In this document: piece by piece, positions 16,690 through 41,336 of the stretch | Layout: every line of letters begins with the position of its first letter | Numbering within the stretch: the stretch's first letter is position 1 | Source: Xanthomonas sp. AM6 | Lineage (GTDB): Bacteria > Pseudomonadota > Gammaproteobacteria > Xanthomonadales > Xanthomonadaceae | Length of the DNA stretch: 64,000 bases | Assembly (NCBI RefSeq): GCF_025665335.1 | Contig: NZ_CP106869.1 | Coordinates: forward strand, 4,180,501-4,244,500 | Direction: 5' to 3' | Notes under the pieces: model-generated | The model's input: only the letters and a program-made list of their open reading frames with translations | The model's database searches: none | What the model was told of the DNA's origin: nothing | Program-made: the position numbers and the translations under genes

Positions 16690-17125
16690 GCTTCGGCGGC
16701 GCTGTGTCGCGGCCGAAGCCGCTCTCATGCGTTGCAGGAGGGCTCCAGTCCGGCGGCTTCCGAAGCCGGAAGGTCTCCTGCTCCGTCGGTCGCGGCTAAA
16801 GCCGCTCCTACAGTTGTCGGTCGCGGCTGAAGCCGCTCCTACAGTTGCTTGCGGCCGGTCGGCTGGGCGCTGCAGGAGGTATTTCCGCCTCTGGACGGCG
16901 GCTGAAGCTGAAAGGTCTGTCGCTTCGTTCGTCGCAGCCGAAGTCGCTCCCACAGGGGCTTGCGGACGGTGGCTGGTGCGCTGGAGGAGGCTGGCTCAGC
17001 CGATTTTGTCGAAGCCGGCGGCATCGCGGCGCCGTTCGTCGCGGCTGAAGCCGCTCCTACAGAAAATGGGATGCGTGGCGGTGCGGGATGCGCCCTGCTG
17101 TGGGAGGGACTTCGGTCCCGACTGC
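16690..17125. repeat. Cluster of REP-like arms in a 580-bp gene-free gap
   Basis: The interval 16678-17259 has no recognisable gene. It contains several REP arms, most in one orientation: 16789-16813 and 16819-16842 (tandem GTCGCGGCTAAAGCCGCTCC / GTCGCGGCTGAAGCCGCTCC), 16929-16953 (diverged), 17038-17061 and a facing partial arm near 17098-17119 (GGGAGGGACTTCGGTCCCGA). Spacing is irregular and several stems are incomplete, so this looks like repeated insertion and decay. Confidence 0.75.
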
Positions 17126-25021: not shown

Positions 25022-25918
25022 TCATTGCGGCAACGGTTGCGCCACGCCCTTCGCGATCGCCTCCCGGATGATGCGTTCGACGTCGCGCTGCAGCGTCGCG
25101 TTGGCGATCTGCCCGCGCTGCGCCAGCGCTTCCTGTTGCCGGGCCAACACCTGCTGCTGTTCGGCCAGCGCCGCCTGCTGTTCTCCCAGCGCGGCCATCT
25201 GCTGCGCCATGTCCGCGTGCGCGGCATCGTGGCGCGCGGCCGACCGGGGAACGGCCTGGTCGCCGCCGGCGGCGCGCCGCGCCTGCTCGCTGGCCTCCCT
25301 GGCCTGTGCCATCGCCACGCCCGCCTGGCGCTGCGCGATGGCGCCCTGCCGCTCGCCGAGCCTCCCCTGGCGCTCGCCCAACCGCCCCTGCCGCTCGCCC
25401 AGTTCGCCCTGTTGCCGGCCCAGTGCCGCGACCGGCGCATAGGCGGCCTTCAGCTGCTGGATCGTGGCCGCATCGCGCACCACGTAGCGCTTGCCGTCCC
25501 TGCGGATCCACCACAGCGTTTCGTTGCCGCGGCGGGCCTGGCGCGCCTGGCGCAGATCGTCGCTGCTTCCGTACATGTTGGTGTCGGTGCCGTCGAACAG
25601 GACCGACGCATTGCGGCGATCGTCGGACGTGATGGTGATGCTCGAACTGCTGGTGCGACGCGCACCGGTGGCGTGCATGGGCGGCGCAGGTGGCGCGGGC
25701 GCAGCGGGTGGCGCGGGCACGCTTCGGTCCGGGAATGCCACGACCGGTGGCGGTGCGGGAGGTGCGGGCGGCGCCGGCACGGCCGGTTCGGCCGGCTCGG
25801 CGGTGTGCGCCGCCGTGTCCCGGACGCCGGCCTGCACGGACGGGAGCGCACCGGCAGCGAGGCCGGCCAGGACCATCAATGCGGCGCCGCGGCGCCGGGG
25901 TGTGGTGTTCGACTGCAT
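25022..25918 (-). CDS. Exported repeat-rich coiled-coil protein under a BlaI-type promoter
   Basis: A 298-residue protein, not assigned to a characterised family. It has a Sec signal peptide (LMVLAGLAAGALPSVQA), a Pro/Ala-rich stretch, a short ordered segment (about 93-160: SSITITSDDRRNASVLFDG, then TLWWIRRDGKRYVVRDAAT), and a Gln/Glu/Ala-rich coiled coil with tandem heptads LGERQGR (about 170-200) and EQQAALAEQQQVLARQQEAL. ATG 25918 has AGGAG upstream. Its promoter (26069-26097) is covered by two BlaI-like operators, suggesting control by a beta-lactam or cell-wall stress repressor encoded elsewhere. Confidence 0.7.
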   Translation of the reverse strand: MQSNTTPRRRGAALMVLAGLAAGALPSVQAGVRDTAAHTAEPAEPAVPAPPAPPAPPPVVAFPDRSVPAPPAAPAPPAPPMHATGARRTSSSSITITSDDRRNASVLFDGTDTNMYGSSDDLRQARQARRGNETLWWIRRDGKRYVVRDAATIQQLKAAYAPVAALGRQQGELGERQGRLGERQGRLGERQGAIAQRQAGVAMAQAREASEQARRAAGGDQAVPRSAARHDAAHADMAQQMAALGEQQAALAEQQQVLARQQEALAQRGQIANATLQRDVERIIREAIAKGVAQPLPQ

Positions 25919-26054
25919 GAGGCGTCTCCTGGAGGCATGGCGAAGGGGCGATGTAGTGGCTGCGTCGCCGGGCATGGGCCCGTACGGCGCCGGCAAGCGC
26001 TTTTTTCCGCATCACGAGACCGCGGCACCTGCAGCGCGCCGCCGGACCGGATGA

Positions 26055-26097
26055 CTACACCTGTCGCCAAACTAGGCTTGCCTACAAATGTAGTCAA
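26055..26097 (-). promoter_or_regulatory. Promoter with two BlaI/MecI-type operators
   Basis: On the minus strand TTGACT (26097-26092), 17 bases, then TAGTTT (26074-26069) form a good sigma-70 promoter. Two dyads of the BlaI type TACA-N2-TGTA overlap it: CTACAAATGTAG at 26082-26093 (perfect, on the -35/spacer) and CTACACCTGTCG at 26055-26066 (one mismatch, near the start site). Dyad centres are 27 bp apart. The pattern of one operator over the promoter and one over +1 is that of BlaI/MecI control. Transcription would run into the gene ending at 25022. Confidence 0.7.
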
Positions 26098-26160
26098 GCA
26101 TGCCGAAGGTCATGCCCGGGCGCCCGTTACAATGGCCGCCAATCCGCGAACGAGACGACC

Positions 26161-26727
26161 GTGTCCAAGCATTCCAAAGCCAAGCGCGACAAGCGCAAGA
26201 AGCAGCAGCCCAAGCGCGCCTTCGCCCGCCTGGGCCGCGAACTGCCCATCGCCAACCACGCCGTGCTGCAGGACGACAGCGGCCGGGTGCTGGCCGCGAT
26301 CGGCCTGCAGGGCAACGAATGGCTGCTGTCCGTCGGCGGCCAGACCATGGGCAACGCCGACAACCCGGTGCCGATGCTGGCGATGCTCAAGCACCTGGCC
26401 AATGTGCAGGAGCAGGAAGGCAACACCATCACCCTGGACTACTCGACCCAGCTGCAGCAGATGATCGACGACCTCGCCGCCGACGAAGGCAAGACCGCGG
26501 CCGAGTACCTGGACGCGCTGGTCGCCGAGTTCGCCGAGGGCGAGGGCAACGGCGAGGGCGAAGGCGACGAAGCCGAGGCCGAGGGCGAAGACGGCGCGAC
26601 CGCCGATGGCGATGCCGGCGACGACGCGGCCGATACGGACCCGAGCACGGCCGCCAGCGACGCGGCGGCACCTGCCGCGGCGGACGCCGACGACGCGGAC
26701 GCCGACGGCAAGCGCAAGCCGGCCTGA
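26161..26727 (+). CDS. Hypothetical protein with basic head and acidic tail
   Basis: A 188-residue protein starting at GTG 26161. The first 20 residues are strongly basic (SKAKRDKRKKQQPKR), residues about 22-125 are a compact ordered region (VLQDDSGRVLAAIGLQGNEW, TITLDYSTQLQQMIDDLAAD), and the last 60 are Glu/Asp/Gly/Ala-rich (EGEGNGEGEGDEAEAEGE). Function unknown. The strong charge separation suggests binding to nucleic acid or to a basic partner. The DUF4031 gene starts 9 bp after it. Confidence 0.65.
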   Translation: MSKHSKAKRDKRKKQQPKRAFARLGRELPIANHAVLQDDSGRVLAAIGLQGNEWLLSVGGQTMGNADNPVPMLAMLKHLANVQEQEGNTITLDYSTQLQQMIDDLAADEGKTAAEYLDALVAEFAEGEGNGEGEGDEAEAEGEDGATADGDAGDDAADTDPSTAASDAAAPAAADADDADADGKRKPA

Positions 26728-27322: not shown

Positions 27323-27700
27323 GAGAGGGGCTTCAGCCCTGCAGCGGCCGGAGTGGTCATCATCACCGGCTTCGTTCGTCGCGGCTGAAGCCGCTCCTAC
27401 AAGAGATTTACGGCGAGCCCGCTGGGTGCGCTGTAGGACGGGCTTCAGCCCCGACGGTGGCCGGAGCCGTCATCGTCACCCGCTTCGTTCGTCGCGGCTG
27501 AAGCCGCTCCTACAAGAGATTTACGGCAAGTCCGCTGGGTGCACTGTCGGACGGGCTTCAGTCCCGACGGTGGCCGGAGCCGTCATCGTTACCGGCTTCG
27601 TTCGTCGCGGCTGAAGCCGCTCCTACAGAAGATTTGCGCAGGCCCACTGAGTGCACTGTGGGAGGGGCTTCAGCCCCGACTGCAGCCGAGGCTGCCGCGT
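27323..27700. repeat. Tandem array of ~113-bp units built from REP sequence
   Basis: Unit starts at 27323, 27436, 27549 and 27661 (lengths 113, 113, 112 and a partial last unit). Each begins GGA-GGGCTTCAGCCC, passes through GGCCGGAG-CGTCATCGT and CGGCTTCGTTCGTCGCGGCT, and ends with GAAGCCGCTCCTACA, an A/T-rich AGATTTACGGC stretch and GCTGGGTGCACTGT. Neighbouring units differ by only a few bases, so the array is recent. No gene lies in 27022-27725. Confidence 0.9.
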
Positions 27701-40253: not shown

Positions 40254-41336
40254 ATGTCGCTCGACCACTACCGCCTGCTCGGCCGCTCCGGCCTGCGTGT
40301 CAGCCCGATCTCGCTGGGCACGATGACCTTCGGCAACGACTGGGGCTGGGGCGCCGACGCCGCCGAGGCCGAGCGCCTGTTCGCGCGCTACGTCGAACGC
40401 GGCGGCAACTTCATCGACACCGCCAACATCTACACCAACGGCAGTTCCGAAACCCTGCTCGGCACGTTCGCCCAGGGCCGCCGCGACCGCCTGGTGATCG
40501 CCAGCAAGTACACGCTCAACCCCTTCCCCGGCGACCCCAACGGCGGCGGCAACCACCGCAAGAACCTGCTGCAGTCGGTGGAGGCCAGCCTGAAGCGGCT
40601 GCGCACCGACTACCTGGACCTGCTGTACCTGCACATCTGGGACGACACCACGCCGGTGGAGGAAGTGATGCGCGGCTTCGACGACCTGGTGCGCGCCGGC
40701 AAGATCGTCTACGCCGGCATCTCCGACACGCCGGCCTGGCAGGTGGCGCGGATGCAGACCCTGGCCGACCTGCGCGGCTGGTCGCCGCTGGTCGCGCTGC
40801 AGATCGAATACAGCCTGGCGCAGCGCACGGTCGAGGCCGAGCTGGTGCCGATGGCCGAGGCGCTGGGCCTGGGCGTGCTGGCCTGGTCGCCGCTGACCAT
40901 GGGCATCCTGACCGGCAAGTACAGCCGCCAGGACCTGGCCGCGGTGCAGCGCCGCGCCGCCGACGGGCAGGCCGGCGCCGAACGCGGCGATGCCGCGCAT
41001 GCGCACGAGATGCTGACCGAGCGCGCGCTGGACATCGCCGACGTGGTCAAGCAGGTCGCCGCGGAGATCGGCCGCTCGCCGGCGCAGGTGGCGCTGGCCT
41101 GGCTGCTGCAGCGGCCGGGCGGCGGCGCGATCCCGATCGTCGGCGCGCGCACGCTGGCGCAGCTGGACGACAACCTCGGCGCGCTGGAGCTGCAGTTGGA
41201 GGCGCAGCAACTGCAGCGGCTGGATGCGGTCAGCGCGGTGGCGCATCCGTTCCCGCATGCGTTCGTGCGCCTGCCGATGCCGCGGCAGCTGGTGTCCGGC
41301 GGCACGCGCCTGCAGCCGCGCACGGCTGCGCGCTGA
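40254..41336 (+). CDS. Aldo/keto reductase (YajO/Tas-like)
   Basis: A 360-residue NADPH-dependent aldo/keto reductase with TIM-barrel fold. N-terminal LGRSGLRVSPISLGTMTFGN, catalytic tetrad region FIDTANIYTNGSSE (Asp, Tyr) with the Lys in VIASKYTLNP and the His in YLDLLYLHIWD, and cofactor-binding AIPIVGARTLAQLDDNL. Substrate unknown, probably an aldehyde or ketone. ATG 40254 (MSLDHYRLLG). Divergent from the LysR gene at 39242. Confidence 0.85.
   Translation: MSLDHYRLLGRSGLRVSPISLGTMTFGNDWGWGADAAEAERLFARYVERGGNFIDTANIYTNGSSETLLGTFAQGRRDRLVIASKYTLNPFPGDPNGGGNHRKNLLQSVEASLKRLRTDYLDLLYLHIWDDTTPVEEVMRGFDDLVRAGKIVYAGISDTPAWQVARMQTLADLRGWSPLVALQIEYSLAQRTVEAELVPMAEALGLGVLAWSPLTMGILTGKYSRQDLAAVQRRAADGQAGAERGDAAHAHEMLTERALDIADVVKQVAAEIGRSPAQVALAWLLQRPGGGAIPIVGARTLAQLDDNLGALELQLEAQQLQRLDAVSAVAHPFPHAFVRLPMPRQLVSGGTRLQPRTAAR

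Follow-up and report, generated by a model that had tools for sequence, protein, structure and literature searches.

Two BlaI-type operator dyads overlie a minus-strand-facing promoter in the window (the whole stretch of 64,000 nucleotides analysed here), and the gene behind it, hereafter the target gene, is very probably controlled through this double operator by BlaI2, a repressor encoded elsewhere in the genome, judging from the sequence comparisons below. The target is a stand-alone homologue of the tail of the M56 metalloprotease encoded directly after blaI2, and we put at about 0.6 the probability that, under repression by BlaI2, it serves as a feedback protein or co-sensor in an envelope-sensing circuit. 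Pairs of a BlaI repressor and an M56 protease are widespread in bacteria, and the well-studied ones sense beta-lactams.

A previous reading of this DNA, made from the sequence only, had placed two dyads 27 bp apart, one on the -35 element and one near +1 of a TTGACT-17-TAGTTT promoter. Both the dyads, with their start-to-start distance of 27 bp, and the promoter were found there (Table 1; minus-strand promoter stretch TTGACTACATTTGTAGGCAAGCCTAGTTTGGCGACAGGTGTAGTCA). The promoter is missed by a generic sigma-70 scan, because only three of the six -10 positions fit the consensus. Its hexamers nevertheless recur: TTGAC is invariant among the aligned orthologues of the target promoter and the 32 blaI2 promoters of the family, the blaI2 promoter has the identical TAGTTT, and target orthologues retain the -35 together with most of the -10. 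Conservation in these orthologues covers the promoter block and not the leader below it. The region upstream of blaI2 (TTGACGACAGTTGTCGTCACGGGTAGTTTGGCGACAGTTGTAGTCA) has the same layout, with TAGTTTGGCGACAG-N-TGTAGTCA common to both promoters, and a single central base distinguishes dyad 2 from GGCGACAGTTGTAGTC, the second operator of blaI2.

Table 1. Features of the target locus (window positions) and of the associated loci (genome positions)
Feature	Position	Strand	Remarks
Target CDS	25022..25918	-	codes for 298 aa from an ATG at 25918; stand-alone protein homologous to the tail of the M56 sensor
Predicted Sec signal peptide	25829..25918	-	residues 1-30 (...GLAAGALPSVQA); read from sequence
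Small beta-domain	25475..25648	-	residues 91-148; two beta-hairpin/helix units; ETLWWIRRDGKRYVVRD motif; AlphaFold2 pLDDT mostly >90
Long helical hairpin	25049..25471	-	residues 150-290; AlphaFold2; the M56 tail model shows these elements too
Operator dyad 1	26080..26095	-	GACTACATTTGTAGGC; overlaps the -35; 1 mismatch to GACKACANNTGTMGTC; kept in orthologues
12-base core of dyad 1	26082-26093		CTACAAATGTAG; perfect
Operator dyad 2	26053..26068	-	GGCGACAGGTGTAGTC; over the expected +1; 1 mismatch to GACKACANNTGTMGTC
12-base core of dyad 2	26055-26066		CTACACCTGTCG; one arm TGTCG
Putative -35 TTGACT	26092..26097	-	sequence; 5/6 to consensus
Putative -10 TAGTTT	26069..26074	-	sequence; 17-nt spacer; 3/6 to consensus
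blaI2	223860-224243		BlaI-family repressor, PF03965 95.9 bits; followed directly by the gene for an M56 (BlaR1-type) metalloprotease
Single perfect dyad	4281488-4281503 (L004 6488-6503)		GACTACAGTTGTAGTC; before an FmdA/AmdA-family gene

The double dyad is beyond chance. A search of the genome (one contig of 4,917,337 bases) for the 16-base motif GACKACANNTGTMGTC, allowing up to one mismatch, returned exactly five sites, namely the pair at the target (4206553/4206580), the pair at blaI2 (223802/223829) and one single site; the reversed pattern, used as a control, had no match in the same genome. Order-1 Markov versions of the window averaged 0.007 extended sites, and among 300 of them none contained a pair spaced at 26-28 bp. 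Dyads of the 12-base pattern at 4055501 and at window position 16808 were set aside, since a dispersed GGAGCGGCTTCAGCCGCGAC-type repeat encloses or adjoins them, as were those at 948407 and 1395574, which lack the full outer GAC/GTC bases. Dispersed GTCGCGGCTGAAGCCGCTCCTACA-type repeats, at 27370-27690 and 16790-16860 of the window, are a source of chance CTACA..TGTCG dyads.

The genome scan for the dyad and for blaI/blaR1 that had been suggested yielded, besides these five sites, two Penicillinase_R (PF03965) genes (124.3 and 95.5 bits, cut-off 22.6) and BlaR1-type M56 proteases. The assertion that no blaI or blaR1 lies nearby thus holds for the 64-kb window, in which neither a blaI nor an M56 gene was found, but not for the genome, which encodes both types elsewhere. 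If the contig is circular, blaI2 lies about 0.93 Mb from the target; the best PDB sequence matches of its product are BlaI (1sd4/1xsd) and MecI (1okr). The other gene, blaI1 (G000:C1:1133863-1134207; L001 1454-1491), forms a second BlaI-M56 pair with the M56 gene that follows it. Just before its start codon lies a different inverted repeat, GTTTACCCGTGTAAT-N8-ATTACAGGCGTAAAC, and the blaI2-type dyad is absent before blaI1; because the repeats differ, the two BlaI systems of this genome seem to be insulated from each other.

Could the dyads be bound by another regulator, such as a CopY-like copper repressor or the blaI1 product, or serve mainly the divergent gene at 26161? CopY-type repressors do bind a very similar 16-base site, the sites described here fitting or nearly fitting the published operator consensus RNYKACANNTGTMRNY (PMC7253601), and the start of the divergent gene is only 65 bp from the dyads. 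However, only two PF03965 genes were found in the genome. BlaI2 contains no cysteine and therefore lacks the C-terminal CXC copper-binding motif, and unlike CopY/CopR it is partnered by an M56 protease; blaI1 has its own inverted repeat in place of such a dyad. As for the divergent gene, the polarity TTGAC-dyad-27-dyad favours the minus-strand gene. We therefore regard these alternatives as very improbable. Control by a BlaI-type repressor, as first proposed, is strongly supported by comparison, in that the same pair is found at blaI2, at its orthologues across the family and at the target in every genome of the genus that has this gene, whereas genomes with no blaI2 or a broken one lack it.

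The target had been described as having no characterised homologue, a statement that we amend: it is a stand-alone version of the extracytoplasmic domain of the M56 sensor (42% identity to its tail, 2e-27), for which there is no Pfam model either. The protein begins with a signal-peptide-like segment followed by a Pro/Ala linker and the region homologous to the sensor tail, and no Pfam or NCBIfam family scores above its cut-off. AlphaFold2 models residues 91-298, with pLDDT mostly >90, as a beta-domain, two helices of about 65-70 residues and a short C-terminal strand; the same elements appear at residues 425-626 of the M56 model, at lower confidence than in the target model. A beta-domain plus helical hairpin with a W-x-R-x5-Y-V-V-R core is common to the target and the tails of Xanthomonadaceae BlaI2-linked M56 proteins, and W137, Y145 and R148 are invariant across 35 sequences. 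Foldseek found no PDB match to the target at E <= 0.001. VIA-align matches with Z of 9-11 (PI3K p85, dynein, axonemal proteins) were rejected as long helices within chance for helical models. In the tree, some branches of which are long or weak, the target domain does not group with the sensor tail of its own genome; it is therefore no recent copy, and its role may be a different one.

The sensor itself matches PF05569 over residues 17-314 (221 bits), with the HEXXH motif present as HELVH at residues 221-225. No further domain was detected at E <= 0.01, and in particular no C-terminal penicillin-binding or transpeptidase-like domain; against the NCBIfam BlaR1 model the protein scores 70 bits, the cut-off being 400. 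These features bear on the idea, put forward in the sequence-only reading, that the target belongs to a beta-lactam or peptidoglycan-damage response. On this view the M56 protein would be triggered by beta-lactams, with the target helping the cell to survive. The well-studied BlaI/M56 pairs are indeed beta-lactam systems, and a peptidoglycan dipeptide is a further signal to which BlaI/MecI can respond (PMC3305447). Against this, the sensor has no penicillin-binding domain and falls short of the BlaR1 cut-off, and none of the five sites lies at either beta-lactamase match (1308404 and 870598) from a search that covered class A. Since the sensor tail is not penicillin-binding and the class A genes carry no operator, such a regulon is improbable. 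The circuit does not appear to be a penicillin response, and the beta-lactam part of the idea is not supported; a response to some envelope signal is plausible.

Conservation of the circuit was analysed in the family and in the genus. In the family, all 32 blaI2 operons that reach the promoter, the one described here included, have TTGAC-linked paired dyads before blaI2, spaced at 27 bp (some at 28, once at 30). The dyad is present in close relatives, its absence there having been named as one of the observations that would speak against the sequence-only reading. Among 20 genomes of the genus, 16 have intact blaI2, and it is these 16 that carry the M56 tail, with four to eight sites apiece. 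The pair precedes blaI2 in at least 15 of these 16, G253 having at least one site among the matches listed. Intact blaI2, sensor and operators are thus jointly present or absent (16 versus 4). Of the four, G153 and G214 are without sites, blaI2 and sensor, and G202 lacks blaI2 and sensor and has a single site. In G186, only a fragment of blaI2 persists (residues 37-98; G186:C1:1974744-1974973), the sensor tail and the target are gone, and one imperfect operator-like site, which may be a remnant or due to chance, lies 28 bp before the fragment; this genome probably represents a natural loss of the circuit. A scan of genome contigs returned one locus, from Xanthomonas bonasiae, a near relative by which the genus was judged to be Xanthomonas.

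The target gene occurs in nine of the 20 genomes, including the present one, and all nine have an operator pair at 27-28 bp. In eight the pair lies directly in front of the target; in the ninth, G170, the target lies at a contig end, and a separate contig opens with the pair, next to the flanking block seen in the other genomes. Seven of the 16 genomes with blaI2 have no target, which is therefore not essential to the circuit.

A different arrangement is seen in the related genus g17 (L046-L055). There the M56 protein is shorter, with a coiled-coil tail and no beta-domain. Just downstream of m56, the same strand encodes one or two stand-alone beta-domain proteins that are secreted. A second operator was looked for between m56 and the stand-alone gene and none was found; as the two genes are separated by about 0.4-0.55 kb, a shared transcript is only likely. 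The tree, with uneven supports, suggests that the stand-alone forms of the present genus and of g17 arose separately. The domain is thus found fused, separate or both next to the same regulator, and since parts joined in one lineage but encoded apart in another may be expected to interact, this suggests that the M56 protein and the stand-alone domain work together. The g17 sensor seems to have ceded its beta-domain entirely to separate secreted proteins, which would amount to a split BlaR-type sensor with periplasmic feedback.

We propose the following mechanism. BlaI2 dimers bound to both dyads would cover the -35 and the start point, keeping the target gene off and, likewise, the operon of blaI2 itself. 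Once the M56 sensor is triggered via its periplasmic tail, its protease domain would inactivate BlaI2, whereupon the blaI2-m56 operon and the target would be switched on together. The computations show the identity and conservation of the operators, the co-occurrence of the parts and the homology of target and sensor tail; repression and proteolytic derepression are what we infer from the family, with BlaI-BlaR1 (PMC9834060) serving as the analogy for repression by BlaI2 and its relief by the M56 protease. What the target gene then exports would be the sensor's periplasmic domain in free form, which could bind the same ligand or the helical tail of the sensor and so shape or shut off the signal as decoy, feedback protein or co-sensor; we infer a feedback or co-sensor role to be the most likely one.

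With regulation unchanged, the secreted target might instead be an effector that binds or shields an envelope component (peptidoglycan, the outer membrane or a small molecule), the sensor having the same domain because it measures the same ligand. The signal peptide, Pro/Ala linker and helical hairpin would suit a periplasmic binding protein, and the predicted FmdA/AmdA-family target also has a signal-like start, so that the outputs seem periplasmic. But no ligand-binding fold was recognised for the target, and in g17 the beta-domain is gone from the sensor but persists in separate proteins encoded immediately after it, which a co-sensor fits better; we thus consider an effector unlikely. More tentatively, the co-sensor reading can be put in general form: a BlaI-M56 system with an input domain that does not bind penicillin might derepress a secreted, soluble version of that domain, the free and membrane-bound forms competing or co-assembling.

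The predicted regulon is small and sharply bounded, comprising three promoters in the genome with a given 16-base operator. At its third promoter, the single site ends 25 bp upstream of the start codon of the FmdA/AmdA-family gene. Site and gene recur in seven congeners (76-92% identity), and in G248 both look decayed. In congeners without the target (L115, L116, L117, L119 and L120), a BlaI2-type site precedes a different gene, whose product (MRGWMAR...) has a signal-peptide-like start and no Pfam family; membership of the regulon therefore changes within the genus.

The system resembles BlaI-BlaR1/MecI-MecR1 of staphylococci and Bacillus licheniformis in its BlaI-fold repressor, its paired TACA-N2-TGTA dyads over the promoter, its HEXXH M56 metalloprotease and its autoregulated operon. 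It differs in that its sensor has no penicillin-binding domain and no class A beta-lactamase was found among its targets; the regulon instead includes a secreted version of the sensor domain and a secreted FmdA/AmdA-family protein. Mycobacterial BlaI (Rv1846c) controls dispersed genes besides its BlaR-like partner, and PDB entry 2g9w, which we take to be this protein, is similar in sequence to BlaI2. We know of no counterpart in which a paralogue of the sensor domain is a BlaI target. The open PMC papers contained no work that we could find on this system; many journals lie outside that set, so absence is unproven. The present analysis describes a Xanthomonadaceae BlaI-M56 system without a penicillin-binding sensor domain and names a secreted sensor-domain paralogue as its trans target. 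What such systems sense becomes testable, with the soluble domain usable as bait and the promoter as reporter.

Finally, a conserved block, TGACCTTCGGCA, lies directly upstream of the -35 (window 26101-26112, minus strand). A second exact copy is found in the window at 40324, within a coding-like stretch, and a similar sequence, TGACTTCCGGCA, lies about 20-30 bp upstream of the FmdA-gene dyads. The block may belong to a divergent promoter or to another regulator.
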